Source of the DNA: Ectocarpus siliculosus
Lineage: Eukaryota; Sar; Phaeophyceae; Ectocarpales; Ectocarpaceae
Assembly (NCBI GenBank): GCA_000310025.1
Contig: FN648654.1
Coordinates: 1 to 64,000 of the forward strand
Reading direction: 5' to 3'
Length of the DNA stretch: 64,000 nucleotides
Shown: positions 1,059 through 40,300 of the stretch, one piece after another
Numbering within the stretch: the stretch's first letter is position 1
Layout: every line of letters starts with the position of its first letter
The notes under the pieces: generated by a model
Database searches by the model: none
What the model saw: the letters and a program-made list of their open reading frames with translations, nothing else
What the model was told of the DNA's origin: nothing
Made by a program: the position numbers and the translations under genes

Positions 1059-2884
1059 CTCCAAATGGGCCTCCCTGCTGAAGTTGGTGAAGTGCTGCAT
1101 GATGTCCATCTCCTTCTTGGTCTTGATCACCCGGCATTCCACGATGGCGTCCTAAAGGGTGGTCCAAAAATCCGTCTCCAGCCCGTCCAGCCCCTCTACC
1201 CTGGGCGGAGCGGACCAAGCCTTTGCCGTCCGTGTTGTAGCCCTTGTTGAGATACACCTGCGGAGACGAAAGCCAACGAGTGTTGGGAGCATATGGGTGC
1301 TTGCTCTACAAGTGCCGCTTGGACATCTGCCCTGTTGATGGTTCATGGAGGATGAGGTTGTACCGGGGCTCTTACAATGTAGAACGGCAGCGGCCCGCGA
1401 CACCTTCGTGGTTGCTTTTCTTTCATCAGTCTGGGTGCACTTGGCCAAGAAATGACGGGCATGCTCTCTGTTGCATGCAGAGATTCTGCGCTATAATCCC
1501 GCCCCGTAGCTATCTACTAATAGAGGTGATTTTCGTTCACTACTGGAAACATGACGGATGTCGCTATATCTCGCCTCACCTTTTCCGGCTGTCCCTCTTT
1601 GATGGTGGAGGCCAGCTCGTCCACGAAAAGCACCTGGTCCACTTTGTACATGTCCTGAAAGCGGCAACGTTTTCAACGTACTCGTACAAGTAAGGGAGGA
1701 GTCACGACGTCTTACGGCGAGGACCGCCTACGCAGGATTTTAAGAGCATCTAAAAAAAGAATAGGGAGGGGGCACGCAGACCCTATCCCTGACTCTAACC
1801 CTAACCCTAAACCTAAAGCACGGATTGAATGCTTTATCCCATATGTTTGCTTAATCAATTTTGCTGCGTAGACTACTACGGCGAGCACGGGGGGGTACGG
1901 TCAACTCTGAAATCGACCGCTCATCTTGTGACAGCGACAAAAGTTCGGTCAATGTTCGTATGTGTAAGGTCATGACCAGAAGGAGAGACAACGCTTCTGC
2001 GCATGCGTATACTGTTGGTGCAACGCTCCTTCACACAGCTGTTGCATGCATCGAGGGTGAACTTGGAGGTCTACAACATGGCCACCCGGAGACCTTCATG
2101 CTGATTGAGGCGACTCGATGAACCGTTCGACACATGAGTACTGAATGGTAATATGAACCATTCGTCAATACCGAGAATGGGTCTGCTGCAGAATGGATTA
2201 GGCAACACCAAGCACACAATCCTTCAACAGTGAGACTACCAAACGTACACCACCCGGCCGCCCTGCCGTGTCTATGGTACATCGTACCTGGAAGTGCTTC
2301 GGGGGAAGGATGTCGCCCATCCACGTCGCGTACTCCGCGGGAAGCCTCGGGATAAAGAGAGTCGCCTTCCCCGTCTCCAGGTCGATCGTCGCGAGGCAGT
2401 TGGGCTCCCTCACCCCGAACAGGTAGTGGAAGGTCGACTCCTGCCGGAACACCGGCTCGTGGTCCGTCTCGTCTCGGTTCGCGGCAAGTCCGCCGCGGAG
2501 CAGCAACACCCCGCGCGGCGCAACTCCGTCTGTTTCGCGCAATCTGTTGATAACCTTGCCCCGGTTCTCGGCGTGCATGGTGTAGTCCACCGGGTACTCG
2601 CCCACCGTCGGGTGCAGCTCTAGGGCGGGCATCTCCGAGGGCACCCTAGGGTTCTTCTTCGACCTCTTGGCGGTTGCGCCGATGGTCTCGGGCAGGAGAG
2701 GGATCAGGGGAGGAGCGGAGGAGGAGGAGGGTGAAGTTGACGTTGAGGAAGTCGTCATCTGTGCTGCTGCCGGCATATTCTCGGTTCTGACACTGCCAGA
2801 GGGAGGAGGGAGATGGAAGGCTAGATATGACGGCGCAGGGAGGAAGAGTGCAGCCGCAACAGCAGAGACAACACGAGGGGGCAT
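1059..2884 (-). pseudogene. Prolidase (Xaa-Pro dipeptidase, PEPD-like) relic, N-terminal half
   Basis: Three exons are visible. Exon 1 (2884-2288) starts with a hydrophobic signal or transit-like peptide, followed by the aminopeptidase-P N-terminal domain (VFRQESTFHYLFGVREP, FIPRLPAEYATWMG). Exon 2 is 1654-1580 (KVDQVLFVDELAS). Exon 3 is 1257-1059 (GYNTDGKGL, then IVECRVIKTKKEMDIM). All joints are phase 0 and match the order in animal PEPD. Exon 3 is broken: one extra G near 1200 shifts the frame, and further on a TAG stands where the family pattern allows Gln, just before DAIVECRV. The metal-binding catalytic domain would lie to the left, beyond the LINE at 1-1032. Two disabling changes plus the LINE suggest a pseudogene. 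If the changes are sequencing errors, it would be an ordinary prolidase whose LINE is intronic. Confidence 0.82.
1794..1815. repeat. Short interstitial telomere-like repeat
   Basis: Three to four units of the CTAACC/CTAAAC type lie in tandem, close to the plant/animal/algal telomere motif family TTAGGG or TTTAGGG. The repeat sits in the first intron of the prolidase relic. It is too short to say whether it comes from break repair or from chance. Confidence 0.5.
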
Positions 2885-3181
2885 CAAACCACTGGTTCAG
2901 TTCATACGAGCGGCGAAGGAGGTGCGTGTTGGTGCCTGCTCTGGCGCTCTGCAACGAAGGGGGTGACGCTAATGGGAATGTACTGGGGGTTTCACGACGT
3001 AGCGGAGGCGGGGTGGTTCGGGGATCCCCAGTCTGTGATTGTGCGAAAGAGCGATCTTTTCGGGTTCCCTCTTGAGGCCTTCACAACAGATCTCACAGCA
3101 GTCCACAGGCCGCTGTGTATCTCCTGTACCCCTCTGGCGTTGAACCCGCCGGAAAAACTGCCCGTAAGATCTCGAGTACCA

Positions 3182-13900: not shown

Positions 13901-16900
13901 CATGTTCCCTTGCGATCTTTCGCGGTTGCTTCCGCGCCACCGCCGCCCGCACGACGCTTCAACACTCAGCGCCCCCCGTTTTCGATACGCAGGCCGGGCC
14001 CGGAAGTGGACGCAGGTTCTTCTCGCAACACTTGCTCCGCCTTACACATCTTCTGCTGGGAATTGATGCTGCGAAAGGGCAGTGCAAAAGGGCAGCATCG
14101 AAACTTAGCACGTCATGCGTTTCGCGCGGTTGTTGTGCTTGGCCAGAAACCCGTCCGGACTGTCATGTTTTTCTTGCGTTTTTTTGTTGTTGGCCAGGAA
14201 ACCGTCAGAGCTGGCTCCTTCCACGTGCCTCCGGATGGCCGGACTCGCGGAGGCGGCCGGCTTCCCGCCCGGTGCCTTGAATGTGGTGACCGGCGAGGGG
14301 TTTCCTACCGGGGATGCGTTGTCGAGACACCCGGGGCTGGACAAGGTGTCCTTCACGGGGTCCGTCCCGACGGGCCAAAGGTAAGCATAAGGGCACTAAG
14401 AATCACATTTGTACGCGGCGGGTTCGTGCTTTTTGTGCGGCAGGCAGGTTCATGCTTCCTGAGAAAGTCCTGGGCGTGAATCAACTTTGGTAGTGCTTGT
14501 GCAGGAGAACTCGGACGTGCTGATGCGTGTGTCGTGATTCGGAGAAGGTTGAAGTTGTTCGGGTCATGAAACGGAAACGACGTCTGCGTTGTCGAAACAT
14601 CGGATGTGCGGTGCACGGGTTGGTGGTGTCGTTAGCACGGTCGGTGCTGAAAGGCACCGCTCGACGTTCGCGGTAGGTATTGCTGAGTATCATGCGGGGC
14701 AACTGTCTGCTTTTGGATGGTAAATATTAGCGGTTGTGGGGGTTCAGTAAGGAATGCGGTTAACAAGGAGACTCTCCGGGGATGCGTTCGAAGAAAACAC
14801 CTTCACGCGCGGGATCGACGCTGTTGTAGTGGCGGCCAAAGGAAGGAGCAGACTTTTTCACCAGGTGTGCACGATATGTGGTTTCGGCTGTACGTACAAC
14901 ACTCCGCACAGACTACTTGAGAGTCCCGTTTCAGCAGAGAAGGCGAAAAGGTATGTAGATAGTTTCCTCATCGGGTGTTGAGGGGGAGGCACGGACACAG
15001 CTTGATTGCTATTCGATGAGCAGCCAGCGTGCTACAGCAGCAACGGTATGGATCGAGGGCTGCAGGCCAACAGAGGGATTCGTGCCTGGCGGCCCCGGGA
15101 GTTCGCGGCCCACTGAAAAACAGCCAAACGTTTTACGACGAGAACGCCTCCCTGAACTTCCTCCACGTCTTGAAGGGTCATGGCAGCAGCGGCGAAGGCA
15201 GGGCCGACCGACGTCCACCTCGAGCTAGGCGGCAAGAGCGCCATGATTGTGTTCGACGACGTGGAAGAAGTGGAGGCGGCCGTGGACTGGGCGTGCGTCG
15301 GGATTTTCTCCAACTCCGGCCAGGTCTGCAGGCGAGTACTAATATCGTACGCCCGATTACTCTGCGGCACAACAAATGGCGACAGCGTCGACAGCGGCGG
15401 CGTTAGAACTGTCTGGTCGAGAGCTTGCCAACAATTTAGCATTCGATTGTGGCACCCTTGTCGTCGTGGAGTAATCGAGCTTTAACAAATCGACACAGGG
15501 GGTGTGGTATCTTACGCAACCTAGACGATATGTTGCTAAATGGAGACGGGGGGGTACGACAAGAAAACTTCGGCGTTTTCATCTGTGGCTGCGTGAACGT
15601 GTCGAGGGCGTGAGCCCCGCGAACATGTAGATGTCGTGCTCATGTGCATATTATTGCACCCATTGACCATTAGGGACAAGAGGTGTTCTGGGGATTGTCC
15701 GGTTTGGCGGTTTCCAGTGCATTCAAAGCGTTTCGCGCTGAAACGAATGTCTTGTTACCCCCCCCCTTCCCTCCGCGGCATCTACCGCGTGCTTCTTTTT
15801 CAGCGCGACCTCTCGACTGCTAGTGCAGTCGAAGATCTACGACCAGGTTGTCTCATCGGTCGTAGATCGAGCGTCACGCATTTCCGTAGGAGACCCCATG
15901 AGGAGGGGACGTGATGCCCCCGGCCCCTGCATGGGTCCGCTCGTGAGCGGCCCGCAAAAGGAGAGGGTCCTTGGATTCGTTACACGGGTAAGCGCGGGCA
16001 CACACGTACAGGCGCTGCCCCCCCTTTTGACATATTCTGTCGCATGCCTTAAGCACACGAGGGGTGTGTTGTTGTTTGCTACGGCGCTGCGCGTGAGCTG
16101 CTGCTGCTGCTGCCGCCGCCATGGCTGTGTTTGTTGTTGTGCCCGAAGTCCGATTTACGTGCGCTTAGAAGGTCCCACGTACGCGATAGGCGCGCACTTG
16201 CTAGACCGCGTCTTTGTTCTTGATGTTATCCCTCACACTTGTCTGAGTGATAGTGTCTCAGCAAACGATTCGCGCGTATGCTCAAAGTGTCGCTGACCCG
16301 CGACGGTAGTTGAAGAAGAAACGCTTGCGGGGCCGAAAACAAGAGATCTGTGCAGCCGCGACATGCCATCGATTACTGCTACCGAGCAGTCTCACTCTTG
16401 ATAATTATCCTCCTCATAGCCAACGTCGTTTACTCCCATCCCTGCAAACCATTGGTCCTCACCCGTCCAGGCCGTGGAAGGCGGAGCGACGGTTATCTCA
16501 GGTGATGGGGCCGACAGAAACGCCGCCGTGCAGAAACCCGCCGTCGGATACTACGTGTCACCGACCATCCTTTCGGAGGTGTCTGACGAGAATGAGGCCT
16601 GGGACGCTGAGATTTTCGGGCCGGTGAGAATCTTGGTCCGCACCGTTTGGGTTGTCTGTGGCACCGAGATGTAGACCGTCTTTGGCAGCATTTGGTCGAA
16701 TTTCCGCGAAAACCTCGTACGTTTTTTTTGTTTGCTCATGGCGAACGTGCGTGCTTTGCGTGTTTCTTTTATTGGACAAGGCGATCGACATTACACAACA
16801 CGCAAGCGCCATGGGGTTTGACAAACGGTTTTAACCGCCGTGAAAGTGGAAACGTGTCTGTTTCTTCCTTGTCCGTTCGCGATAAATCGGATGGTGGATG

Positions 16901-17554: not shown

Positions 17555-18855
17555 ACACACGTGCCTGGGTCATCGTAGACATGTACTCTTGTACTTTTTT
17601 TCTGGAGGGGGGTTGAAAGGGAGGACGCAGGACCGCTTGTTTCCCCAAGTTTTTACGCAAGCGCGAGAAACTGCGATTGTGACGACCGAGTCCTCAGCGG
17701 CGTACAAATTTGTGCCTTTGACTGTATTTCTCCCAAGTCATTTTTTTTTCCAATGACAATGTTATTTGCCCCGATGGTCTAGTGGGTAACCTCGAAAACC
17801 TGCCAAGCAGCTTGATGTGAGTGGGAGTGATTAAATTTGTCCGTTGACAGTAGGCGATAGGAAGGAAGCGACAGGCCCTTCTCGCGTGATTTCTCGCAGG
17901 CAAGCACCACGCGGAGAAGATGGGAGGACAAAATAAGAGCCACTGTATTACGTTCCCTCCTGTGTGTTACCGCGGGTGATGCATCAAATACATACCACGA
18001 AAGGTGCAGCCTGTGGCGCCAGGATAGGCGGGCCTAAGAGACGCACACATAGACCCGTTGTTCTGTCCATCATTCATGAGGTTCAGGCGGAAACTGGATT
18101 GAATGAGTGAGTGTGGGTCATCCCGATATGGCGGGGAGTGCTGCACAAAATGAGAAAAGTGATAGATTCAGGATCCTGCGAACGTGTGTACCGCATTTTG
18201 CGTTTATGTCCGAAGGAAAACTCATCAGAGAGATCAATAGACCGGAGGGGGCGTTTTCTCGTGGTCAACCATACAAGCTTCCAGAATCACCCGTTTCAAA
18301 GAACATTGCCATACAACGCGTCAAGTCCGCTTTTATTTTGAAATGAAGCATGTCATCCATTTAGTGAATCTGATCTGCTCACATGGTTGACCTTGTTTTC
18401 ATTCCAAAGTCGATCCTTTAGCAAATACCGGCAAATTGGTAGCGGCCAACTGGCAAGCAGTTCTTGCTTGACTGTCCCAAGCATAGTGCTGCTGGATGAG
18501 CAAGGCTGGCCCTGTAGATGGGCGTGAAAAATTGTTGAGATGGTAAAGTCCCTGATTAGGCCGGCCCTTGTCGAAAAGGGGAAGGAGAGTGAGCATCTCA
18601 GGTGGCGAACACCCGCTTCACGCACCAGCGGCAAGGAACTCAGAACTCGGAGCATTACGCAACATGCCTAAGAAAGATACAGAATACCGGGTACATCAGA
18701 AGATAGCCCGAAGGCCTACGCCCCTTGAACGGTCACTTCGGCTCCGTGGTACAAACCATCATACACGGGTAATTATAGCGGTAGCCTTCGTAAGGGTGAC
18801 ATAATCAACCTCACGAACGTTCGCAACGGCAAGTGCCACATCTACAGAAACACAA
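17555..18855. other. Convergent intergenic region, no gene recognised
   Basis: This lies between the ends of the ALDH gene (+) and the large membrane-protein gene (-). I see no coding exon. At 17767-17790 there is a tRNA-like 5' half that includes a box A-like TGGTCTAGTGG, but no matching 3' half or box B follows, so it is not called as a tRNA. Confidence 0.5.
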
Positions 18856-21800
18856 CTACCGCGCGGCCGTGTCGACTGTGCGGGCGACTACGGGGGCGTC
18901 GGCATTACGCTGAGGCCCCGTTCGTGCCGCGGACGTGTTGACCCGCCGGGTGCCCCTGGTCGTGTCCGCCACGCAAGCAAGCACGTTGCTCCCAAGCATG
19001 CGGCACCACGTGGGGCCCCATGCTCTGAAGATGTAACCGCGGATGAACTTGCGCTCTTCTTTCGCTTCCTCCTGCGAAACACGTGTATTGAGCACCGGAG
19101 TTGCATTTTTGGCAAGAACCCCGTGCCAGTTTTGATTGCTTGCGCGCGCCACCAAACGATATACGCGTATCGTACGAACTCAGTTGACATCCTTCGCAAC
19201 CGTGGTAGCGAGTGAGTGACGTGTTCTGCATCGACTCGGTGGGTTGTTCATCCCACGGGGTACGATGTTCCCCTTTCATGAAATAGTCATCTTGCCAAGA
19301 ACTGATTAATCAATTCACTTTTGTCGCCATCGTTCCACATTTTGTACCCGTCGCTTACACGTTTTTCATTCTTCATTCCCTACAGCCTTTTCCTTCTCAC
19401 TGAAGAGCTTTGATCTGGATCACGCAAGATAATCCTTTGTGCAGTGAGCTTTCATTCAGAGCTTCTTTCTCACCTCTGTTCGACCGTCATCGCAAGTGTT
19501 GCTCTTGGTCAAACTTCGTATTTTCTCACGAATAGCTCCCAGGATCACGGTGGAGGCATCAATGTACATCGGGATTATCAGCGCTTGGACCATCCACCCA
19601 CGCGGCAACAACACGCAGAAGAACGGGAAACGCACGGGTCGTCAAACGGAAGTATGCTTTCTATACAATAGATTGCTTGGACGCTGCAGAGTGCGGCATG
19701 CAACACAAATTTCTACGGCAGTAGAGTTCCAATTGTGAGATTTCAGTCGTTAACAGAGACTTTCGAAAGTGGTGAAGCCTATGGTCGCTTGAATACCGAT
19801 ATTCCGACACGCGGCACCGATCGCGTTGTAATGATGGGCGGTATTCGGGGGTGAATGAAAACGGTAAAGTCGGCTGCACGCTATGAGCGCAAGAAGATAG
19901 TCTCTTTTTTATTGCCCCACGACCCTACATACATTCCCTTGAGTATGAATCACATCACCCACGCATCTCACCCACGAGGGCCACAAGTTGCAGGACCACG
20001 ACGGCCGTGTCCATTCGCTTTGCCCTCGATGTCCGTTGCCATCGGTGAGCGGTGTCAGCTAGCATTGCCATGGAGGCAGCGTCGATCAACGTCAAGCATG
20101 CCCCCATGGTGTTGATGATACTACATAGAAGGAAGTAAAGATTGGGGGAGAGTGTGAGTCGATATGTTGCCAAACACGAACACTCAAAATAAACTGCGGA
20201 GCACTGCATAGCATAAGAGGAGATATCCGAGTGGTGCCGTCATCAGACCATCGGCTTGGCATCCCAAACCGCCAGAGCGGAGCAATATGCCCGGTATTCG
20301 CCGCCTCAGGCCACGATTGTGAAGGATGTGGATCCCACAGGATATGTGCCACAAGAAACCACCTCTACGGTGAAAACCACCATGGAAATAAGCTTCAAAG
20401 TTCGAGGTCAAGCGGATAATCCCGTCTAACATCCTCTCCTGTGAATGATCTTCCGTGTAGAGCTCGCCGGGGAATCAACGCGGGGGACGGTGACCCCACG
20501 CTCAGTCTATAAGGAGCAGATCCCCGTCGGTATTCTTCGAGCATAGTCCAATGCCACATTGAAAACAGCAAGCCTCGACGTTGCGCATCATTTCGTTAAG
20601 TTGAGCAGAGCTGATGACTCGTTCCCCGGCCAGTCAACGATAGCTGGGGGTCCAACGACTCAATATTTGCCTACCCCCCCGCAAGTATTTGCTACTCCAA
20701 TGAGGGGGGTGTCGAATGCCAACCCGGTATTGAATATCCAGCTAATTGGTGCCATCAACTCCTAAAGCTCTGGTATGGAAGCCACCATACGTGCATGTGT
20801 GTGGCGAGGTAGTCGTCGGATAGATGCGGGGGTGGAGAGGAACGTTTAGTGCTCTCTAGCTGTTCAAGAAGTTTTTGGTCACGGAGAAAAACGCCTCGCA
20901 TTCTTCCGCGGTCGTCGGCAGTCTACATCTTGATCATGAGCTTGCGCTGCTCGATATGAGTACTTCAAGTTGATTTTAATTTTTTTTCGAAAGATGGCAG
21001 ACTACGCCAGGCATGGCCTCTCTCACCTGTTAGCAAACGGCCTAAAGATGACGAGCAGGAGGAAGGACAAGGAGTGCAGGCCGCAGAACAAGAAGAGCTG
21101 CACGACGCTGTCGTCCACCAACACCGCAGTGCACGCGATACCTGTCATCTGAGCGACCCAGCGCAGGCATGCAGCGACAGCAAGGACCAAAGAAACCGAG
21201 AAAGTATTGCATAGAAACTCGCTGTGTCGCGGACAGAACCAGTTGACACCATGGTAAACCTCAAGAGCTGGGAGAGCCTGGACGGAGAGTTGAACAAGAC
21301 GGTTAAAATAGACGAGAATGCTGGCCTAGAAGTGCCTGACCGACCCCACGGCTATCGTTTTTCTCTCGACACATGCACCTCTAGAAGGAAGTACACCGTG
21401 AACCAAGACGCTTTCTTGGTGAAATCCACGAAAAGCGGCTCGAACCCGATCCGGAACTGGTCTCCTTCCCGCACAGTCTCTTCGTCCGGAGTCTCCACAG
21501 TCTCCCACGCCCCCGTGTTCGCCCATGCGAACATGCTGTGATCTTCTTTTAGACCGGTCCGGACCTTGGAGAGGAAGCTGCGGGGAACGGTACCATCGGT
21601 GCCATGATTCTCTTCTTCACCGACCGGTTTAAACACAATCAGCGTGTCGGGTGCCACTCGTACGCGGTGTGTACGGTAGCTCAGAATGATCATAAGGACG
21701 GGATAAACGACCTGAGGGCCAGCACGAGGACAACCGCCACGGAAGACCGGTTCAAAGCAGGGTGAGACATTGAGCTCGTCACCTATCATTGTGCGTTCGA

Positions 21801-24800
21801 TGACCCCCAAAGACGATGAGTTTCTGTCTGACCCTACAAACCTGCAACAAGAACATTGGGCGCAAAAAACTTGGACGCAAACGTCGCAAGCTTCGAAGCG
21901 CTTTATCCCAACATGCCAACACATTGGGACCAACGTGCCTTCAGAGGGCCTGCAGTCAAACAAAAACAGTGCTCCATTTCCTGTGGTGACAATACTATCG
22001 CCCAAGAGCACTCTTATTCAACCGGCACTAAACAGGGACCCCATCTGCAGTATTGTACAGAACCAATATGTCCTTAACTACCATGTGTTCTTTTGGGATA
22101 GTGTGTCTTACCAAGGACGCGCACGCCGAGTAGAACACCCACGGGCATCCACCTCCGCGCATCGTCGCTAGCTGCGATGCCATCGCCCCCTCGAACGCGA
22201 ACAGCAGGAACAAGAGCTCGATGTGGGGAAAGTAGAGCCAGACCGAGCTCGACCGATACCGGCAGTCCGCAAGCATTGCTCGAAGACCCTTGGGGCGCGA
22301 CCGGATCGGTATCCCGTCTTCCTCGAAGTCCACGCCTACGTCCACGGAGTCGGCGGCGGCGTGTTCTCGGGACATTGCCCCGTCATTGGATGCCGAGGCC
22401 GCCAGCTCGTCGGGATCAGACTCTGCGTCCGGGCTGTGCGCCACTCTCGAGGCCCGCCGTGCCCCGAGCCCTCGGATGGGAATACCACGGCGCTGGGCCT
22501 TGGTCAATTCTTCCATTGCGCGTTCCTGGAGGTGCAGAGTATAAGGTGGTTGGCGGGCAGGATAACCTGAGGATTTGTTGTGAAAGATCGCTGCCGTTGT
22601 AGACTACGCCGCATTTGTTTGCCGTACAGACCAATAGGTTCAAGCGTGCATGGTCTCGACTTAGGGTGGGGGTGGGGTACAGGAGTTACAGAGCCAAGGC
22701 ACCGACACCACCATTGCTGCTGCCAACCCCCGCTATCCATAACAGTGTGTTATTACACATGATTTCTGCGCTTCACCGCCAACAATGCGAATTGGGGGAG
22801 ATCGGGCCGACGCCGAGGGATCGGAACTACAGGTATTGGCCCAAAACGCACCTTCGACAACCAGTAGGCCTCGACCGCAGACACCAGCACGATGTGGATG
22901 ACAACAATACCGAGGAGGAGGGAGGTGAACAGACCGATGTTGCCCAAGAAGACCAGGGCGCCGATGTCGCTGGCCGAAGTTGGCTCGATTCCGCATGCTC
23001 TTGAGCCGTCTTGCTGAAAAAGGCGTTCCCCACCCGATGAGAAAGTCCGACCGACCGAATCCGGAGGCCAGAGATTCACCCACCTACATGGGCGTTGGGG
23101 GCCAGAGGATGCACGCGCTTCACAACACAGATGAGAGGGAGTTCGTCAAGAATTGTGGGTACCTTCTATCGTGGTGCTATCTAGCGGCAACCCCTTGCAG
23201 ATAGCGTCGGGAACTCAACGGGGCCATCGCTCTTTGCGGTTTTACAGTGCAGGTATGAATACTTTCGACCACTTTTTTTTTGTATTTTTTTTCCGGACAA
23301 CGCGAAGGGAAATCGCAGAAGCACCCCATAAAACATGTTTTTGTTTACGTGTACCAGACCTGAGATTTTGGGTGAGCTCAGAAAGCAGCGAGTCCTCAGC
23401 TCCTGTGGAGTCCACCAGTGACAGCGTCGCGAGAAACTGGATCTGAGTTAAAAGCAGCACGGCGATGGTCACCGACGGCGCTCGAACGCTGACATGTGGC
23501 TGTACGCTGGCAGCCCCCAGAACCCCCTGTCATGGGGAGGAGCGAACAAGAACGCGTGCGATTGGCGCAGCTTTAGTAATTTGCCAGCAGGCATGTTTCG
23601 CGGAACTGGAGGCGAAGCTTGCCGCGAACGGTCCAGAGAACCAGCGTAACGATCGGTTCTTTCATGCCTCTGTGACGCCTCAAGGGCTTGCAAGAAGCCG
23701 AAAAAAGCAGTAATTGCACCTGAGGGGGCATTGATGCGTGGGTGGATGCGGCTGCGTTGGCGGCTGCGGCTGCACTGGCGGATGTCGACACGCTTGCAGC
23801 GCCTCCAAACATGCTGCCTGCCGTGACGACGGCCAAACCGCTCCAGGCAAATATGGATGCGGCTCCTGCAGCGACGGCCCCAGGGTAGACGACCTGGGCA
23901 AAGGACAAACAAAACAATATGTACTGTAAATGAGCACCGAGGGTAGTGCAGACTGCGCTCGGCGGCCGTTCCCGTATTCGGTTGACCTCTACGGCGAGTC
24001 CTGCACGTTGGTGCAACTAACGTCGACAGGTGGTCTCAAGGCAAGCACTCTTCTTCATTGTAGAACCGCCTTGCGTTGTGAACTATCCGCGGAATGACGG
24101 CATGGTCCACCTATCCAAGGACGATTAAATAGTTTGATCAGGTACGACGAACCTCAGATACGGCGGCTGGGGATGCGGTCTGTGGCGCAAGACCCTCCGT
24201 CCTCGACGGAGCTTGTTCGAGAGTTGGCTCTGCGTCGGCGTTGTACTCAGGGGCAAGCTGGGGCGGCAGGCTGCGGCGATCGGTTGTTGGCTCGGTAGGG
24301 GTTACCCCTACGGTTGGTGAGGAACTTGGCTGGTCGACTGTGGTTGGAGTCATGGCTGCGAAGCCCCCACGAAGAGGGTTGGGCAAGGACACGGGGTATT
24401 GGAACATGGTCAAAGATGGAGACAGACCTTCGACACATGCGACGAGATCGAAACGTTCATGGTTTTCAAACCTATTTTAACTATCAGTGTATGCGTTGTA
24501 AACTACAGTATACTTCGGTGTTGAAGACATCAAAAAGTATCATCTGCCGGTTGAACGTGTGGTGTTTGCGCGAGGTAGTGGGCTCCCGTATCCGCAGATC
24601 CGTGCAAGGAGAAGGCACCTACACATTGGCCTTTCTTCCCAACACGCCCATTTCAATGCTCGTGATATCCTCTGCATCGGTTCTACGTCGTACCCTCCAA
24701 CAAGGGTTCGTCGTCGGCAACACAGGCATCAGCTGACATTGGCCGCGAATCCGAGAACGCATTACCTGTACTAGGCCCTTGCGTGCGTCCCTGACTGGGT

Positions 24801-27800
24801 CCCTGGGTAGATCCTGGAGTGGGTGTTGGAGCGGGCGCTGGAGGAGATCCTGAGGTTGGTCCTGAGGTCGGTCCTGAGGTCCGTCCACGAGTTGGTCCTG
24901 GGGTAGACGGTGGAGTGGGCAGTAGGGTAGGCTCTGTAATGGGTCCTGGGGTGCGTCCTGGAGTTGGCGCTGGTGAGGGTCCCAGAGTAGGTCCTGGCGT
25001 AGGTCTTCGAGTGGGCACTGAAGTGGGTCCCAGAGTAGGCCCTGGCGTAGGTCCTGAGGTGGGTCTCGGAGTTGGTCCTGGTGTAGGTCGCGGAGTGGGC
25101 GCTGGAGTAGGCACTGAAGTGGGTCCTGGAGTAGGCGCTAGGGTAGGCACTGGAGTGGGTCCTGGAGTGGGTCCTGGAGTGGGTCTTGGAGTGGGTCCTC
25201 GAGTAGGCGCTGGAGTGGGCGACACAGTAGGCACTACCTTGGGCCCCACAGTAGGTCCTGGCGTAGGTCCTGGAGTGACCGCTGGAGTGGGCGCTGGAGT
25301 GGGGGCTGGAGTAGATCCTGCGGTGGGTCCTGAGGTTGGTCCTAAGGTGGGTCCAGGAGTTCGCACTGGAGTGGGTCCCAGAGTAGCTCTTGGCGTAGGT
25401 CCTGGAGTTGGTTCTGACGTGGGCACTGAAGTGGGTTCCAGAGTAGGCGCTAGGGTAGGCACTGGAGTGGGTCCTGGAGTGGGTCCTGGAGTTGGCGCTG
25501 GAGTGGGCGCCAGAGTAGGCACTACAGTGGGTCCTAGATTGGGTCCTGGAGTGGGTGCTGGAGTGGGTCCCGGAGTTGGTCCTGGTGTAGGTCCTGGAGT
25601 GGGCGCAGGAGTAGGCGCTGGAGTAGGCGCTGGAGTAGGCACTGAAGTGGGTCCTGGAGTAGGCGCTAGGGTAGGCGCAATAGTGGGCGGTGGAGTGGGC
25701 GGTGGAGTGGGCGGTGGAGTGGGCGGTGGAGTAGGCGCTAGAGTAGGCGCTGGAGTAGGCGCTGGAGTAGGGGCCGGAGTGGGCGCTGGAGTGGGCGCTG
25801 GAGTAGGCGCTGGAGTGGGCGCTGCAGTGGGCGCTGCAATAGGCGCTGGAGTAGGCGCTGGAGTGGGCGCTGGAGTGGGCGCCGGAGTGGGCGCCGGAGT
25901 GGGCGCCGGAGTGGGCGCTGGAGTAGGCGCTGGAGTAGGGGCGGGAGTGGGCGCTGGAGTGGGCGCTGGAGTAGGCGCTGAAGTGGGCGCTGATGTGGGC
26001 GCTGCAATAGGCGCTGGAGTAGGCGCTGGAGTGGGCGCCGGAGTGGGCGCTGGAGTAGGCGCTGGAGTAGGGGCCGGAGTGGGCGCTGGAGTGGGCGCTG
26101 CAGTGGGCGCTGCAATAGGCGCTGGAGTAGGCGCTGGAGTAGGCGCTGGAGTGGGCGCCGGAGTGGGCGCCGGAGTGGGCGCTGGAGTAGGCGTCGGAGT
26201 GGGTGCTGGAGTAGGCACGGGAGTGGGCGCTGGAGTAGGCGCTGGAGTAGGCGCCGGAGTGGGCGCTGGAGTAGGCACTGGAGTGGGCGCCGGAGTGGGT
26301 CCCGGAGTGAGTCCCGGAGGAGTCGCTGAGTCGGGCGTAGGCACTGGAGTGGGGCCCGGAGTTGGTCCTGGAGTGAGGGGGTAACGTGGTATTGCGTGTA
26401 GCGCAAACGTTCAGTCCAGACGGGTGGGTGCCATGAGTCGGGAATTTCTTCCTGCTACCTACCGGGGAATATCCTTTGGTGGTGTTGCTGTCGCTATCAT
26501 TGTCACCGTCACTATGCGGCGGCATGGTCGTTGTGATACTTCGGTGTGGTCGACGTTATGATCATCTCCATCGCCATCGCCGTCGTCCTCGTCGTTGTTG
26601 TGACTGTCGTTGGCGTGGTTGCCATTTCTTGATTTGAATCAGCGGATTTCGCAAAACATTCTCGCAGTTACAGCCACGACAACATTTCTTGCGCCCCGGC
26701 TGAATCGAAGGAATGCGCGCGCTACAGTAGACGATACAACCCCATACATATCTAGAAGAGTAAATTTGGATATGAAACGTTATACCGTGTGCGGGTGCTC
26801 ACCTCCGCAGCATACATCTTCATCACATGGAGGGTAAAAGGTGTTCAAGCCCGCAGCCGCACATGCAACCAGCAGGCTTTCTGTTCCTTCGGGGCAGCCG
26901 TTGTAATCCTTGCAATTAAAGACGTCAGTGTCTGAAAGTATGGCGAGAGTTCATATACGAGGATTATGTCGCGGACGTTTCGTTTGGACACAGCTGAACG
27001 CTTCTCCTTACAAGGCCTACCAGAGGGAGAAACCCGCAACGATACCACATGGTGTCATGCCGTGTTTCCACGCCTCAGCGTGAAGGACGCATAGTCGCAA
27101 TGAAGAGGACTGGCGAGGATAACGGAACTTCCCTTACTTTTGTGTTGCCAAAGGACAGTCAGGGTCGGATGGAAGCAGCGAGTCTTCAATGACTCCAGAA
27201 AAGGTAATACCATCTGCCGCGGACAAGATTATCCTATCCTTGAAAGAGGCCACTTGTGTAAAGTCGGATACACACATAAAGGCGTTTAGATAGATCACAC
27301 AGATACACAAGCGGTTGCCGGTTCCTATTGACAAGTTGGTACTCGGCAGACACGGCCTACAGTGTAGCCGTGGTGTTTCTCGATCTCTCGAGAACTCTTG
27401 GTTCTGAGTGCTGCTCTCCCACCAAAAGCACCTCACTTAGCGAATATCGTCCAGTATCGCCGGTTAGCGGCCTTGTACTGTAGGGCTTCGGGTTTATTTC
27501 CACGTAGATATATACCTCGACCCCCAAATCCTTATTTTATCCCTAGGTGATAAAGAACGCCTGCAGTGATGTTCTGATGCAATTATTGTTAACTGACCCA
27601 CAGTACTGAAGCATGAAATCCGATATACTGTAGTCTACACGTCTAAGCAGACAAGTAATGACCAAGCAGACGTGGTGGGTTCGCTTCTCTTTCATCTCAC
27701 TCACCTCCCGTTCTGGCAGGCCCATCCTGTACGGCGTTGCCTGCCTAACTGAGTAATAAGTATAAGACTCCCAATCGGAGCTTACACGAAAGATTCCTGC

Positions 27801-28919
27801 GGTGGCGCGCTTGTACTGTGAACCATAGCAGAGTGCGGCGGATCGTTTGTTTCTATACTGTAGGTAGTAGATAGACTACTTTTAGGGCACCAGCACAGTG
27901 TTGATCGCACTCACTCACATTCATCTTCGCAGCAGGTGAGATCGCTGCACTCGTCGACATAGGTGTAAGACTTGGGACGATAGTCATCGTCGGGAGACCA
28001 ATAAAACGTGTAGCAGTTCGGCAGGTTTGGCGTGAAGTGCCCCTGCGGGCAGTCCCATTGCAAGCACGAGAAACACGCCAAGTCACTTGACGGATCGTTC
28101 CTGCATGGAAGAAATTCTGCACAACGGAAACAGGTTACACACCGAGGGGGAACAGCTCCGGTGATACTGTAGTGTGGGGATAGAGATATGTTGGTGCACT
28201 ATATTGCTCAGCGGATATGGATGCGACGCCTTCTAACAACCAACCATGGGGTTACCGTCCGGGAAGATATATTTGTAGTCTATCCCCAGTACATGTATTC
28301 TACTTGCCGCTCATTCCTGACATTCTAGTTGTTGATTCTACAGAAAACAATGGCTAACATTAGATCTACCACGTGCGTTTCGGGACATGGCGACTTCTTC
28401 TCACGGCGATGCTACTATACGGTAGGTGAAGCACGACACGGCAATCCAACAAGAGCACCTCAGAATATTTGTTGCTCAGGTCCAAACCTCGACGCACGCT
28501 CTCCGCAAACTTAAACGTGTATGTACGGACATTTGCATGTGATTGACACTACCAACAACATGAAAGCAGACCATTCGAATCCCAAGTGTTTGGTACATAG
28601 ACTACTGTTCTTTGTGCCCCCACCATAACTACTCATCAAACCAGCAACGCGATGGTTTATCTACTACATGCCACCTCAACCGAATCATATCTCTCTCCGG
28701 AGCATCTTCTAACTGCGACGATATGAATCTCGACGCCAACGGCCCACCTCCGGAATAGTACGCCTGCAGGTCGCGGTGCTCGAACGAACTAGATGATGAG
28801 GTGGTGGAGTTGAACAGCGTCGAAGCAGGACTCTCTCCCAGGTCGGCTGAGGCAACAGCCGGCCAATATGCTACATGGAGTACAAAAAGCGTTCTCATGG
28901 AGACACTGGGAAATGTCAT
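18856..28919 (-). CDS. Signal-peptide, Cys-rich, Pro-Thr stalked multi-pass membrane protein, about 1,359 aa
   Basis: Thirteen exons join with matching phases to exactly 1,360 codons: 28919-28675, 28100-27919, 26931-26803, 26367-24766, 24355-24153, 23893-23720, 23442-23360, 23083-22852, 22525-22112, 21711-21379, 21148-21027, 20120-19976 and 19071-18856. Exon 1 has a signal peptide ([18 protein letters not shown]). Exons 2-3 give a Cys-rich ectodomain with [10 protein letters not shown] and CDEDVCCG. Exon 4 is a stalk of about 530 residues of PTPA-type repeats. From residue about 787 there are six to eight hydrophobic segments, including one with [17 protein letters not shown], one with [16 protein letters not shown], then [14 protein letters not shown] and [12 protein letters not shown] charged cytosolic tail ends the protein. 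The layout recalls fungal FLC/Pkd2 TRP-like proteins and polycystin-type receptors, but I could not identify the family from sequence alone. Confidence 0.82.
24790..26370. repeat. 12-bp minisatellite coding the Pro-Thr stalk
   Basis: About 1.58 kb of imperfect tandem 12-bp units (GGAGTGGGCGCT on the + strand, AGCGCCCACTCC on the - strand). The central part, 25600-26300, is the most uniform. The left part is more diverged, with GGTCCT variants. Higher-order blocks of about 200 bp, marked by GCAATAGGCGCT, recur near 25840, 26007 and 26113, which shows local amplification. Confidence 0.93.
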
Positions 28920-30820
28920 AGCGCCTTCTCTCCGCGCCACGGCCCATGCAGCAAGAGCTCCCTTTCGTTGTGTTGACGTGCGTTGCCGGTTGCGTCCATG
29001 GGTCAAGACTGAATGCTTTGGGTCTGTTGCCGTTGAGGCAGCAGTCCATTTTTCTGTGTGCCATTTGTTCACCATGATTATATTTGCAGCCGATTGGGGA
29101 TGATTCAGCCCTGTTTAGCGAACAAAACTACAAGACTATCCACATATAATATTTAGCTAGTTCGTTTCAACGCGTGACTTTGTCCCTTAAACACTAGCCT
29201 TACCTGTAATTGTGGCCTGCGCGGATTGCTTTGGGACGTTAGTTCGGCTGAAACAGAAGGCGTAGGGCTGGTGCCGTCCTTGGGTGGCCGAAGGGAGAGG
29301 TTTGATGAGCACGGAATGGCATATAGCATGCTTGTCGTGGTAGATTGTTGATGGTGCCAGGCCATAAGTCAGTCGACTTCATCAATCAATCAAGGGCGCA
29401 CGCATTTTGAAGGCAAAACAAGGAATATATTACACCCACACATGATGACATAGGATCTGACGTGTACCTTCAACCATTCAAATATAAATACGTACAGACT
29501 ACGTACAGTGTAGTCGCGGACACCGCGGTCAGCCGGATCAATTGTTAATGAACCGACAGCATTCCGAGTGAATTTTCACTCTGCTTGACCATCTCATGTG
29601 GTATACCTCATGCATATATATATGCGTTCATTCGCACGTCGAGTCGCGCTGGTTGCAGTTGTTGGCCTCGATAGGCAGCATATCGTAGGTGGGTAAGCTA
29701 TCTTCTGTGCACCAGTGTACGTTGCTCAGTTGCGCGCCGACGACACTTCCTACAGCTGAACTGAATAGTTATGTATGTATCTAGAGGGTGTGTGGAAAGT
29801 GTTTCTTTCGTGTCGGATGTGGGTGGCGTGCCAGCTCCTGGCGGCAACCAGTCCGAACAAAACAAACCGCCGGAGCGCAGAGCACCTTCGCCGTTAAGAT
29901 GAGTGAGTGGTGCGATGCAAACTGCATGCGATGAAGGATGATGGCTCAAGGTGCAGACACAAACGGATTCGGTGGAATCCTAAGACGGCGTGCACGTAGG
30001 TGTCGGAATAACCTTTTCTAAGCAAACGTCTGAATATTCCCAGAAATTTCGAGCGTCAAGTCAGAGCGCGGACCAGGCCATCCCGGATATGGGCTGCCCG
30101 TGAAGCATCGCGTCCATGTATGCGGTGCGCACACAGGAGGGCACCCTCTCGTGTTATGAAGATGCGATGACACAGCATATCCATCTCTTGGTGCACGATG
30201 GATGTCGCTTCGTATTCTAAAGAAGTGTGCGCACAGGCACCCACAAGACTTCTCCAACATAAAACCGAAACGAGTCTTCTTGCTACCGCGCTTTGACGGT
30301 TTTCGAACACGAACTCTCTGTGATATCGTTCCTGTTGCGTTTGTGTCTACCGTGCTTTGCCTCTTCTCTTTCAACATTTCATAAATAAATCGGGTTCAGA
30401 CATCTTTTGGCATCGACGCGTACTCCAAGAGAGTAGTAGGAATAGTTTCACATGGATGATGGATTTACCCTACTCATGAACAAGTTACAACCGAGAAGTT
30501 TTATCCCTGCAATACATTGCAATAGATAGCCGTGGAACATTCTGCTACAAGAAGGCGCAGTATGTGATGTTCGTCAACCACAAGCAAGCATGCTACAGCC
30601 GGTGCTTTCGTGCATTCCATGATTTTACTGTAGTTAGTAAAACGATCGACGACCACGACGAAAATTCTCATCTTCTTCGGATGCATGCCATCGCAAACAT
30701 CGTAAGACACAATTTTCGATGTTTGTTGTTGCGACATGCACAAGCCTTGATGTATCACACAGTTAATTCCTCCGTCCACAAGTAAGTTTTCTTTTCGTTT
30801 GGGTTTAAAACAAATCGCGT
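28920..30820. other. Intergenic stretch upstream of the membrane-protein gene
   Basis: No gene is recognised here. The presumed promoter of the minus-strand gene lies at the left end, but I see no clear TATA element. The remaining short open frames lack motifs and splice support. Confidence 0.45.
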
Positions 30821-30823
30821 CTT

Positions 30824-31121
30824 GGCAGGAATACTTGGTGTGCTGGTCGCCTCACCTGCTGCCCGCTGCTGTGTGCTGTACGTGCACGTTCCACACGCTT
30901 CTACCGGTGTTTATGTGTCGACGGAAGCCTTGAAGGGCTACATACAGCTTGGGATTTGTTTAGCTGAAGGAAGTCTACCTCAAGAAAAGTAGAAGGCAGT
31001 GTTCGGTTCCCATTGGGTGCGTTTAAAGTTGTGGGCAGGAATACTTGGTGTGCTGGTCGCCTCACCTGCTGCCCGCTGCTGTGCGCTGTACGTGCACGTT
31101 CCACACACTTCTACCGGTGTT
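30824..31121. repeat. Pair of 88-bp direct repeats
   Basis: 30824-30911 and 31034-31121 are near-identical copies that start GGCAGGAATACTTGGTGTGC and end CTTCTACCGGTGTT. They differ at only a few positions and are separated by about 120 bp. They look like a recent local duplication, or the long terminal parts of a small mobile element. Confidence 0.75.
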
Positions 31122-32567: not shown

Positions 32568-35500
32568 CTAAAACCCATCCGGGCGGACCCAAAGCGCCTC
32601 TCCCGTGACGGAGTTGTAGTAGTACGAAGCCCCCACCTCCTCGTCCCAAAACTCCCCCCACTCCTTGCAGGAGGGCGTTGATGGTGGGTTGATGTCCGAT
32701 CCCTTGCAGGATGACGGCGCCAAACTCAACGGTCCTGAAGCGGAAGACGTTGAAACCGTCGCCGCCGCCGTCGCTCCCGCCCCGCCTCCCCCCATCCCCA
32801 AAGGCGCGTTGCTGTCCATATGCAAGCCATAGCCAGACCCGGTACTGAGGATGTTAGCACCGGCTTGAACAAGGTGGGTGTTCCTTGGGGACGCCGGGGA
32901 AATGGCCCGACCTGGCTCTCTCTCGGCAACTCGGTGGTGCTGGTGATCGAAGCAAGCGGGTGTTAAGAAATAATTGAAGATATGTGGTGGAACAAACGAG
33001 CGAGACCAAAGAAGGTTGAACCGAATTGATGTACCCTGAGTAGCTTTGGCCTTGAATTCAAGGATGATTTGTAGTATTTCGACGCTCCTCTTACTACCTG
33101 TGAAGCTGTGGACAGAATTCAGACGAGACAAAGAGCAGGCGAGACTTGTGCATCGTGTGCTCCAATGTATCGACGACGCTAACAGAGGCGTGACATTCAA
33201 GATATGCCGTGGTCAAAAGAACGATGTCGTTCCTCCCGCACGGTTTCCCTCTGCCTCTTGATATTCATGCCTCTTTTGTCGAAGGCAAGAAGCAACAATC
33301 TTCGAGGTCCGCCGGGTAAACGACGAGGAAGAGCTTGGCGGTCACGTTTCGGCAATTTATATATCATACCAATCCCCAACGTCTGTGTGGGCGATACTCG
33401 CGCACAACCACCCGGTCTCTTGACGCGTGCGCGTTTGTTCATGTTTACGATAGACAGCTTGAAAGCAATAGGTTTGGCAAAGGACAAAGCGCGATATGTT
33501 CATTATCATTAGAAAGTAGCCCTAATGCCTACCGGGGGATAGGGCGGACACGGTCCATTCACCCTTCCCAACACGAAGAACTGTTATTCAAAGAAAATAC
33601 ATCCGGGCGTCGTCACTTCTGATAGCCCACGCGCAACCACTCAGGAGAGCCTCTTGTTTTGCCGATGCTCGTTTCGTATGTGTTTCCTCTGTAAGTTTGC
33701 CCAACATCGACTGCGTACATGTTTCTATCAGTAGTACGGGGTTCCTACCTGAGCACTTGGTGTCCAGTTTCCAACTACATGTAATCGTATTTTCACGCCT
33801 GGATTTCTGGCTCTGAGGTCCTTTGGTGGTGGCGCATTCTCTATCGTGGAGAACAAACTCACCGGTGACGCAATTTTCTCCTCGGCTGCTTGCGCGGCTA
33901 ACATTTCCCTCCTCCTTCGCTGCTCCTCTATGATGTGGGGTGGTGGCGGCCCTGGGGGGCGTGGAGGTTTTGCTGCGCTCGCCAGGCAACGAGGCAGTGC
34001 GAATTGTTACAAAGATAGATAGGTCGTTGCAGGGATTCCACGATGTAGTTGCTCATATGTGCGGGGCAAGATTTACAAGCTGCATGAAGCACTCCAAGCA
34101 AGCAAGAAAGTTCGAAAATGTTTGTTGTTACTGTAGACCAGCTCGCCCGCAAAGTTGTGTCAGTACTTGCTCGAAGAATGTGACTGGGTTGGTAACCACG
34201 GTGGAAAAGACCGCGGACGCTTCAATTGAGGGCGGTGAACGGTTTTAGGCTTCCCACGATCCAGATGCAGCAACAGCCTTCTGCGCACCTACTTCCGACT
34301 CACCATATTTACGTAGTTGCTGCTGGCTCCCCACCGGATTCGATAAAACAGACCCCTGTGACACTGTGCCGCAGGAGGGGCGCTCTGGAGCCAGTGCCCC
34401 TTGGTTCGGAGATCTCGATCCTTCCGCAGGTCGCGTCTGTATCGGATTGTATGCCCTCTGCGTGTGTCGGCCAGTGTTGGAGGATAGCTGGAGGGGCAAG
34501 CGCACAAATCATGCCGCAGGGGAAAAAACGTGCTTGTTACAAAGGGCGTTTCGGGTCGTCAGCACATCCAAGCACACGGCGTGGATACGCTTGGTACAGT
34601 AGTGGTGCCTATGTCAGAGTTGGTGAGGATTCGGCAAGCATGTACGGGGAACAACAAATCGAAGTACATGACAAGAAACTCGTGCGCCTGAACGCCATGC
34701 TAACCGTAACCCCATGATGTCACCATACACACAATACTATGAAATGCATCGATTTCTCAGCCAAGAGTTAAGTTCAACAACATCAATGTTGCACCAGTCT
34801 CAGACAGCTGGCGGTCGCTACCATATTTTCCGGTGGTGTACATAGTGCCGTGCGAAACCTTTCACAACCCCCATGAGAACCCACCCGATGGCAGGTCATG
34901 GTGGTTTCCACGTTTGTTTGCCGCCCCAACGGAGCATAGTTCCAAACGCAGATGGCGACCAAGGACAATTGTAGGTACAGGAGAAAGTGTACATGTTACC
35001 CCTTTACTGGGTCGTACCGAAGGCTACAGAAGCGACACGCTTACTGTGAACAAGGTGCAGCAATCCTGGACAAAGCTACATGTAAAGGCTTTACACTTTG
35101 TCGGATGCGACACTGGAGACAGCACCATACAACGGTTGTGTATGCTACAGTAAATGTAGGTGTTTCGTGTTTTGACTCCACCAAGGACAGAAGGATGCAG
35201 CAGTGTAGTCTACACTACAGTATGTACGTGTTTTCGAGTGACTCCACTGCGGACCCAGGATTCTTGGCGTGACTACAGTACACTGCTATACACTGCTAAT
35301 TGACTCACCATCGGACGAGCTCCCCTCCCAACGCTTCCAGCAGTAAACACGTGAGGTCCCGAAGCCACAGGAGTGCCACCACCGCATAGTGATGGTGGGC
35401 GATGCCTCCGTAGGACACCCTCCTGCTTGTGCCCACTTCCTTGCATGGCCGGAGGCACACCAGCTGCGCCTTTCAACAACCATGATGATGCGTTCACCGC

Positions 35501-37318: not shown

Positions 37319-40300
37319 TGAGGGCGAGGACGGACCCTGGCGACGAGAGGGTGGGCAGGCAGCTGAAGGCGAGTCGAGGGCGGGGCTGAGGGCGCTGCGG
37401 AAGCAAATAGACGAGGGAGCACCGGCGTCGCAGACCATCGGAACTATCGCGAACGACGTCATCGTGGACGGTCAGGAGCTGTTGACCACGGAGGTGATTC
37501 GTTTGTACAGTCCCTTCTTGAAGTAGGCCCCGTATGGCCCAAACCATCATACATGTCCAAGGAGCAATTACCTCCGTCGCCACACGGAAAGTTAACGTCG
37601 TCGATGGGGCCCGAGGTGTCCTTCGGGCAGCGGGTTCTTAGCCTCTCAGGCCCACCAAACGATGGTTTTGCCGTTTTTCTTCGAGGGAGTTAGCAAGACT
37701 CCCGAACGAAGGGACCACGGTTTCGATCGCCATCTTCATGCACTCGGGGAACCCAATATCTAAACTCGGACGAATCCCATCAATCGACCCCCCCCCCCTC
37801 TTCGGTGTCAGGAATGCTGTTTGCGGATGACTTTGTTGGTATGTCGGACACCCCTGAGGGACTGCAACTGCAAATTGACGCGGCGAAGAAGTTTACTGAT
37901 AAGTGGAGATTGTCTGCCAACGTTACGAAGAGTGCCGTCATGGTATGCAACGAGGGCAGGGAGGAACCAGTAGAACATAGATGGAAGTGGGGGATCGAGG
38001 AGATCGCAGTAGTCGACCAGTACACATACCTCGGAGTAGAGATCGCAAAAGATTGCTCGTGGAATGCACACATGTCCAAGGTAGCGGAAAAGGGCAAAGC
38101 ACGAGCAGGGAAGCTGCACCCAATACTCGCAAACCGGCACCTTGATACACGCATCAAATTGACGGTTTTGAAGAGCGTAATCGTACCGCCGCTGGAGTAC
38201 GCCGGAGAAGTATGGGAAGGAAATAAGAAGGTAGTGAAAGAACTCGAGGCGGTGCAGATGAAAGCAGCGAAAATCATCCTAGGATGCTCCAAGCGCACAA
38301 GTAATGCAGCAGTCAGGGCAGAATTGGGGATCCAATCCCTACGGTCGGGAAGAGACGTAAGGAAGCTGACATGGCAGTACCGCATGTGCGGGATGGGAGA
38401 GGAGAGGTTGCCGAGAATAGTATGGGAGGCGAAGTGGGCAAACAAAAAGAGGGGTAGACAACCCACGGAATGGGTCAAGGTTGTAGAGGAGGTATGGAAA
38501 GGGGTTCGACATCGACGAAGATGAAACGTTGGAAACGGAGGGTCTAAAGGGGTTCAAGAAGAAGATATCTGTTGCTTGTGCCGACAGAGAAGAACAGAAT
38601 CTAAGGAAAGAATCCAAGGATAAGGAGGGTCTAGAAGTGTACGGAATGTTGAAAGAAGGAATAGGGTTCAAGGATTACCTACATGGACCAATGGATGCAG
38701 GGACAAAGCTTAAGGTCAAATTCAGGACCGGGGACATAGGCCTTCGCGAACGTCGACGAAGACATAGGACGGTAGACGACGAAGACGACAAGTTCAAATG
38801 TGATTGCGGCTTCGAATGCGAAGACAGTGTTCATGTAGTCGCGGAATGTCCGTGGTACGAAAAGGAGAGGGAAGTGTACATGACTGAGCTGGGAAGAATA
38901 CAAGGGACGTACAGGGAGATGTTTGAGGCATGGAATAGAGAGGAGAGGACGGTAGCGGTACTGGGGAGTAGGAAGTGGTTTGAAAAGGCGGGAAGTGACA
39001 TCGGTAGGATAGACAGACTAGGGAAGACATTTTTGAGCCACCTTTGGCAAAGTAGGAAGGAACGATTGGCCATCGGTGATCGGTCCTGTGGGAACAATGC
39101 TCCGTCCTCTCGAGGACGCGTGGTCAATGGTCTAACCGCTAAGGCATGCAAAGCATAAGAGTACGCCCCCCCCTCCCCTCCTTTTTTCAAGGCCAGTGTT
39201 ATTCTCCAGCGCTGTCCTCGCCTTGCCGAGGCCGCCAAGGCGGGGGAACTGTTGGCGGGGCTGTCATCTTCTGCGAACACGCGAGCGGGAGGAGAGAGCG
39301 ATTTTCTGCTGGAAAACCTGGAGAAGGAGGTGGTCGCGGAGCTTGACACACCGTGGGATGTTTCGGTCAAGAAATGGAGGTGCGCATGTATGTGGCGTTG
39401 TTTTGGATGTGCACCTTGTGTGGTATGTCATGATTCTTCTCGGTATTTTCTTTTGATATTTCGAATTGTGTACCCGTTTTGGGTAGGTGGCTTGTGACCA
39501 CAGAAGGCGTCCGCTTTAGTTGAACCTATGCGGGTGCTGCTGTACTGTAGAAGGTACGAGCAGAGGCCGAATGTGAAAACCATCAGCGCTACAACAACCC
39601 TACAGAACATTTGGTAACCGTGCATACGTCCGACGTTTCCAAGGAAGGCTCGATGCTCGGTGCGGCGACACGAGCTTGTTTATGTTCACGGTATGATGCC
39701 CTGACATTGATGTGGAAAGCGATTTTAATATTTCATGTGTATGCAATGCTCTCGAGTTTACGGGCGACGATGGAAATCACCGGCCTAATCGTTCTCGCGA
39801 TAATTTTTAGGCGAGCACCGCAGAAGGACGACAGAGACAAACACAAAACTTAAAAGAGCCTTCTGTGTGTGGTTTCCTCCCTCTGCAACCCCGGCTGATG
39901 CATCCAGAACATAAACCAAAAAGGTGCAACAGTCTCATGCTGGAAAAAACAAAAAAGGTGTAACAAGCTTCAGTTTTCGTGCTACCCTTCTGGCGTCAGG
40001 GGTGGATTTGTTCGGAATTGTCAACTAGCGATTGTGGAGCCACCCCTTGGCAGTAGGATGCCACGTGCTCGATGTACCCGCTCTCCACCGTGAGGCTGGG
40101 TGGGTGCCTCTCGCCCAGAAAGCCACCGGCAAGGACACTGCTGCGCACGCACGGGTCTCTTGGGTGGTTTGATGCCGACCTCCTCCTCTCAATCGATTGT
40201 CCTTGCCTTGTTGTCCCCCTTTTCCCCCTCCCGCGTGCCACGTGATGCTACCCGTTCGTGTCTCCCGTGTTGGCAGGCAGAAGGCTCTGGCGGTGGAGAA

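Follow-up and report, generated by a model that had tools for sequence, protein, structure and literature searches.

Three groups of described proteins provide the background for a gene of the brown alga Ectocarpus siliculosus located on the minus strand of contig FN648654.1 (assembly GCA_000310025.1), within its first 64,000 nucleotides, the stretch analysed here and referred to as the window. These are the fungal Pkd2/FLC proteins, the proline-rich stalk proteins of Chlamydomonas and the arabinogalactan proteins of brown algae. The extracellular and nine-helix domains of fission-yeast Pkd2 are both essential, and the reconstituted protein passes Ca2+ on membrane stretch (PMC11277609, PMC12028594; the nine helices are described in PMC11277609). 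Most FLC proteins, not all, carry the ML-like domain PF14558 (PMC9600462). Chlamydomonas MST3 is presented in PMC11015965 as a hydroxyproline-rich stalk joined to a PKD2-like domain; seven other proteins there have large ectodomains and PKD domains that are incomplete, and proline-rich regions are present in each of those listed except one. In brown algae, TRP genes are greatly expanded, with 51 in Sargassum fusiforme (PMC11085791), and arabinogalactan proteins are present (PMC8307928).

The gene described here starts with an ATG at 28919 and finishes with a stop codon ending at 18856, the same ends as in a first-pass annotation made from the sequence. It is a protein-coding gene of 14 exons and 1425 residues. 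Like the fungal Pkd2/FLC proteins, its product has an extracellular N-terminal part, nine membrane segments (here by hydropathy only) and a charged tail; the sequence match falls within the final third of the TRP model, with the family consensus at the curated cut-off. Unlike them, it has Cys-rich modules with a CC motif and a Pro/Thr stalk in place of the ML-like domain, which was not found, and its own score is below the cut-off. With Chlamydomonas MST3, which occurs with PKD2 and SIP at the mastigoneme base, the protein shares an algal proline-rich stalk fused to a membrane domain resembling the TRP superfamily; in contrast to MST3, the seaweed membrane half gives no PKD_channel match and has nine segments. 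A long run in which single prolines alternate with Ala, Thr, Gly, Val and Ser residues is also found in chimeric, arabinogalactan-protein-like wall proteins of brown algae, whereas the stalk considered here is part of a multi-pass membrane protein and its glycosylation is putative. Among the matches listed from the open-licence literature, searched by titles and the beginnings of abstracts, there was no description in brown algae of an architecture that combines stalk, Cys head and Pkd2-like membrane half.

Expansion of the EsV-1-7 domain marks brown algae. At least 150 scored matches of this domain (PF19114) are present in the genome and none in 14 control genomes, which include an archaeon and may not discriminate algae; the algal setting proposed at first pass agrees with this count.

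Membrane half and related loci

In silico analysis of the C-terminal half revealed nine hydrophobic segments in the mean hydropathy of eight rows (the window protein and seven relatives, with fewer rows beyond segment 7). They are located at residues 798-816, 865-883, 950-968, 1082-1100, 1108-1126, 1220-1238, 1243-1261, 1275-1293 and 1307-1325; hydropathy gives ten peaks, the overlapping 1100-1118 and 1108-1126 being counted as one. The segments are followed by a charged C-terminal tail of 88 residues with the motif W..TWC.ML..N..AC..DT, and a multi-pass half with a charged tail is what had been annotated. Invariant columns of the alignment include FRIGFEP, W..PHxEL and PFxN.

The window protein matches the Pfam TRP family (PF06011) below threshold, with an E value of 3.9e-5 (23.1 bits), and the same family is matched by seven of nine aligned rows at E<=1, the best at 1.5e-5. 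For the family consensus the E value is 8.8e-7 and the score 28.5 bits, equal to the curated cut-off, while none of three reversed-sequence controls matches TRP. The resemblance to TRP-like FLC/Pkd2 architecture seen at first pass is therefore supported, at a sub-threshold level. At E<=1 the nine rows together match six families, and neither PKD_channel nor Ion_trans is one of these. Judged from these sequence comparisons, the membrane half probably belongs to the TRP/Pkd2-like superfamily. Two other PF06011 genes of the genome (L029 and L030) likewise have a large ectodomain and match TRP over the final third of its model, and one of them, scanned alone, gives a similar sub-threshold match; they differ in their ectodomains, which by eye are repeat-rich and beta-helix-like.

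The gene has paralogues. The genome searched comprises 189,456,909 bases in 492 contigs, with the contig of the gene labelled C157. Searching it with the multi-pass half yielded 57 matches of exon size, which were grouped into ten loci: the window itself, two copies at C487, and one each at C321, C309, C339, C90, C463, C10 and C479. A splice-aware aligner, which scores splice sites and was not supplied with the intron positions of the window, was applied to exons 6-14. Five loci reach the tail (both C487 copies, C90, C463 and C10), C321, C309 and C339 align to about segment 7 with last pieces that look forced, and C479 aligns partially. In the nine-row alignment, which omits C309, identity to the window protein is 47, 45, 46, 46 and 38% in the five tail-reaching rows, 44 and 42% in the two rows ending at segment 7, and 33% in the partial C479 row. 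At C479 (L019) the listed open frame of 13,684 residues is probably a run of N rather than a giant gene, because it reads as X shortly before the match.

The intron positions of the membrane half are largely shared. Those at 191, 329 and 440 (all phase 0) are present in all eight loci compared, 480 (phase 2) in seven of eight, 113 (phase 2) in six of eight and 530 (phase 1) in five of the seven loci that span it; the two remaining of the eight introns lie within variable loops and are shifted by a few residues among loci. Counted by locus, residue and phase of the window introns are both kept in 7 of 8, 6 of 8, 5 of 8, 6 of 8, 5 of 8, 5 of 7, 5 of 6 and 4 of 8 cases. The junctions of exons 11, 13 and 14 were picked with the relatives in view, so that intron agreement at these exons is partly built in; the remaining junctions were picked without them. 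The aligner also proposed extra introns in the relatives that are absent from the window, many of them in C10. The position of the window copy was not resolved in a tree of nine members. A peptide pattern was matched by 6 stretches in a viral collection and by 32 in a prokaryote collection, and none of them encodes a relative.

Gene structure

The gene model was built by reading all minus-strand frames and chaining splice sites by phase, followed by correction against the relatives in the same genome. Exons 6-14, which encode the multi-pass half and the tail, are confirmed by spliced alignment to the related loci. Exon 6 (23720..23893) encodes hydrophobic segment 1 and an Ala/Ser loop, exon 7 (23360..23526, or with its start at 23499) segment 2, and exon 8 (22852..23083) the motif LRWVNLWPP and segment 3. 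An acidic loop, segment 4 and the start of segment 5 are located in exon 9 (22112..22525), segment 5, a loop and the start of segment 6 in exon 10 (21379..21711), and the remainder of segment 6 with segment 7 (RPFAN) in exon 11 (21027..21148). The acceptor of exon 11 was set where the relatives resume; starts at 21221, 21262 and 21277 were dropped in favour of 21148 after alignment of the relatives. Exon 12 (19972..20120) contains segment 8 and the start of segment 9, exon 13 (19474..19583) the remainder of segment 9 and the start of the charged tail, and exon 14 (18856..19071) the charged tail with TWCRML..NVLAC..DTTRG and the stop codon.

Thirteen exons had been annotated at first pass, whereas fourteen have been found. 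A gene end at the stop after exon 12 was rejected because five relatives carry a GT donor at that residue, which reads GTGAG in three, and two further conserved exons lie downstream. These exons, 13 and 14, were discovered by comparing the downstream DNA of the five relatives and are conserved in four of them at E 2e-6 or better (1.5e-6 to 1.2e-9 for exon 13, 1e-10 to 6e-15 for exon 14); the fifth, C10, weakly matches two of these over exon 13 and aligns in both exons.

The placement of exons 1-3 and 5 is predicted from splice sites, phase and gene order. Exon 1 (28675..28919) contains the start codon, an N-terminus that by eye resembles the signal peptide annotated at first pass, and the Ser/Thr-rich start of the mature protein; it is placed by its open frame, a GAG/GTGGCA donor and a phase compatible with exon 2. 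Exon 2 (27919..28100), with a GAAT/GTGAGT donor and a CAG acceptor, encodes Cys module A. Two options for the junction of exons 1 and 2 are equally open: 28675/28100 (phase 2, 1425 residues) and 28748/28116 (phase 1, 1406 residues). Exon 3 (26803..26931, phase 1-1), placed by splice sites and phase, encodes Cys module B, C..CPEG..CDEDVCC. It is followed by exon 4 (24766..26367, phase 1-1) with the Pro/Thr stalk, and by exon 5 (24153..24355), also placed by splice sites and phase, with 68 residues that correspond to the second Ser/Thr/Pro-rich segment of the first-pass annotation. The phases are compatible through exons 5 and 6.

A codon score was trained on the membrane-half codons of the relatives and for this reason favours that half and says little on the ectodomain. 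The in-frame scores of exons 6-14, except exon 13, are reached by 3 to 29 of 500 stop-free stretches of the window used as nulls, and that of exon 13 by 80 of 500. Exon 4 has the lowest score, reached by all 500 nulls, because of its odd composition. No Rfam family matches positions 14000-34000 of the window at the gathering score.

Stalk and cysteine-rich head

The stalk, annotated at about 530 residues, has 534, of which 218 are Pro, 126 Thr, 70 Ala and 42 Gly. Single prolines between Ala, Ser, Thr, Val or Gly account for 181 of the 218, and there are seven PP pairs; this is the arabinogalactan type of spacing. Exon 4 is a 12-base minisatellite. Wrap-around alignment on the DNA alone, blind to the protein, resolved it into about 119 units of 12 bases with eight indel steps, and mismatch rates were obtained for codon positions 1, 2 and 3: 0.017, 0.042 and 0.150 for Thr; 0.034, 0.034 and 0.467 for the second Pro; 0.185, 0.150 and 0.237 for the first Pro; and 0.083, 0.425 and 0.356 for the variable residue. 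The stalk is under protein-level constraint, as selection on the Pro/Thr rhythm would leave, and a non-coding repeat is disfavoured since the mismatch pattern by codon position fits such selection. A Ser/Thr/Pro-rich frame in the same place as exon 5 is seen by eye at C487 (minus copy), C463 and C90. On the plus strand opposite the stalk (24795..26384), an open Gly/Val frame of 529 residues was observed, a mirror by-product of the 12-base repeat.

The Cys-rich ectodomain with CC modules proposed at first pass was found as two modules, A in exon 2 and B in exon 3, each with a CC motif at its end. The ectodomain gives no Pfam match at E<=10, and neither module matches Pfam, one of the queries having been a mixture; the ML-like domain PF14558 (TRP_N) has no match in the genome in an exon-by-exon search, which is not proof of absence. 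Both results accord with the statement that the ectodomain and stalk are not like the usual forms. The label "unrecognised family" accordingly holds for the ectodomain and fails for the membrane half, with its PF06011 match.

The window modules resemble those of C463 and C90, with the same Cys pattern and A before B, and the Cys residues of exon 3 can be aligned with five C463 modules. C463 contains 13 modules, four A-B pairs followed by five more B, which precede the Pro-rich frames and the membrane half of that locus; 11 of the 13 lie in phase 1-1 exons under an automatic choice of sites. At C90, one A-like and seven B-like modules are present in 36-46 kb, with further ones found by search to about 60 kb. 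Profile comparison of A with B modules gave Prob 14. Upstream of both C487 copies there are long Pro/Thr-rich frames, and no CC module was found there. In total, CC modules were seen at three of ten loci, with little upstream DNA read for five loci.

The Pro/Thr units of C90 start at 40 kb among the modules and extend to 82.6 kb; the membrane half follows at 88-92 kb. The pieces read contain 40 units (41 pattern matches, one doubled by overlapping pieces), 39 of them followed by AG/GT, and these units are probably exons. The C90 stalk (pieces L033, L031, L032, L026 and L016) was apparently built through exon duplication and not as a minisatellite. C90 might be one giant gene, with modules from 37990, the membrane half at 88382-91753 and 46-60 kb unread.

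Neighbouring features

Four further features were noted in the window. At 2198..2896 on the minus strand, an exon-sized frame contains the N-terminal domain of aminopeptidase P (AMP_N, E 3.3e-21). An aldehyde dehydrogenase piece (Aldedh, E 7.5e-9) is located at 15742..16296 on the plus strand, opposite to that of the gene and past its 3' end. A frame at 32568..33212 on the minus strand contains a WW domain (E 1.4e-6), and a reverse-transcriptase-like plus-strand frame at 37694..38524 (RVT_1, E 2.3e-5, below cut-off) is probably a fragment of a non-LTR (long terminal repeat) element.

Interpretation

The favoured explanation, put forward tentatively and with a probability of about 0.42, is that of a brown-algal TRP/Pkd2-like protein with a Cys head and a wall-reaching stalk, whose nine-segment half would serve as a strain-gated, Ca2+-permeable path. 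It is drawn from three sources taken together: the stretch and Ca2+ data for fission-yeast Pkd2, the stalk and PKD proteins of Chlamydomonas, and the brown-algal TRP expansion. In anatomy the protein corresponds to fission-yeast Pkd2, with a rod and a Cys head replacing the lipid-binding domain. The stalk would be hydroxylated and O-glycosylated into a stiff rod carrying the Cys head into the wall, where the head might bind a wall polymer or protein. A pull on the head, or membrane stretch as in fission-yeast Pkd2, would then open the path in the nine-segment domain, and the protein, tethered to the wall and gated by strain, would report wall strain to the cell as a Ca2+ channel or a subunit of one. 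Its conduction, glycosylation, location and force-gating are all presumed, as is the mechanosensor or adhesion role suggested at first pass. Counted in favour of this explanation, besides the spliced alignment to the related loci, the shared introns, the TRP match of protein and consensus and the proline spacing of the stalk, was that at C463 and C90, too, the membrane half is preceded by CC modules and Pro/Thr segments.

Several results speak against it. The PF06011 score of the window protein is below the curated cut-off (23.1 vs 28.5 bits), and the match spans only model positions 281-407 of 426. An exon-by-exon search of the genome with PF06011 listed four places elsewhere (two over the cut-off) and neither this gene nor its relatives; a profile comparison with the two other PF06011 genes was not significant (Prob 0.1), and searches of the PDB with the single protein and with the profile gave no relevant match. 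For the ectodomain, the codon scores of exons 1, 2, 3 and 5 are not above the null, being reached by 129, 219, 238 and 285 of 500, respectively. Exon 1 and exons 2-3, searched against the genome, found only themselves as significant matches (next E 0.25 for exon 1). With a module-A model made without the window copy, exon 2 came out top among 1688 frames of the window, at a non-significant E of 0.33, and the equivalent module-B model missed exon 3. At C90 the modules and Pro/Thr units are interleaved, so a simple head-then-stalk order does not hold there.

Because the TRP match is sub-threshold, the protein might instead be an adhesion or structural receptor, in which the plasma membrane would be tied to the wall by the stalk and CC head, with the nine-segment half as a non-conducting anchor or signalling platform. 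The stalk type differs strongly among the relatives, which suits such a role. A single helix or a glycosylphosphatidylinositol anchor would be enough for it, yet the multi-segment half is the part best shared among the relatives, and this explanation is considered rather unlikely.

Brown algal spores and gametes swim, and the protein could accordingly be a flagellar hair or ciliary tether of these motile cells, comparable to MST3 with a PKD channel. The precedent is the hydroxyproline-rich stalk and PKD2-like membrane domain of the Chlamydomonas protein (PMC11015965). Such a tether is made distinctly unlikely by the lack of PKD_channel and Ion_trans among the families matched; no flagellar link turned up, none having been sought.

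An FLC-like carrier or regulator, handling flavin or lipid in the secretory pathway and bearing a mucin-like coat by chance, would be in line with a Pfam domain common to fungal FLC proteins (PMC9600462). It is judged improbable, given that PF14558 was found neither in the ectodomain scan nor exon by exon in the genome, and that there is no obvious purpose for a long stalk within the secretory pathway. The weakest candidate is a pair of adjacent genes, exons 1-5 coding for a secreted CC protein rich in Pro and Thr and exons 6-14 for a separate multi-pass protein. Two genes would be in line with the lack of independent coding support for exons 1-3 and 5 and of significant relatives for exons 1-3; such a pair is highly improbable in view of the compatible phases through exons 5 and 6, the same-strand order of CC modules, Pro/Thr segments and membrane half at C463 and C90, and the Pro/Thr-rich frames preceding the membrane half at both C487 copies.

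Implications

It is possible, though doubtful, that brown algae independently evolved polycystin-like wall-strain receptors from a Pkd2-type channel, a glycosylated Pro/Thr rod and CC modules, the rod being evolvable in length: through a 12-base minisatellite in one exon at this locus, and in C90 through duplication of short Pro/Thr units, about 40 in number and probably exons. The gene, with nine related loci in the same genome, is a candidate for sensing the state of the seaweed cell wall. A multi-gene family of this build, with stalk, Cys head and Pkd2-like membrane half, would have reached the combination of stalk and channel known from Chlamydomonas mastigonemes by a path of its own, and it offers direct candidates for gene removal.

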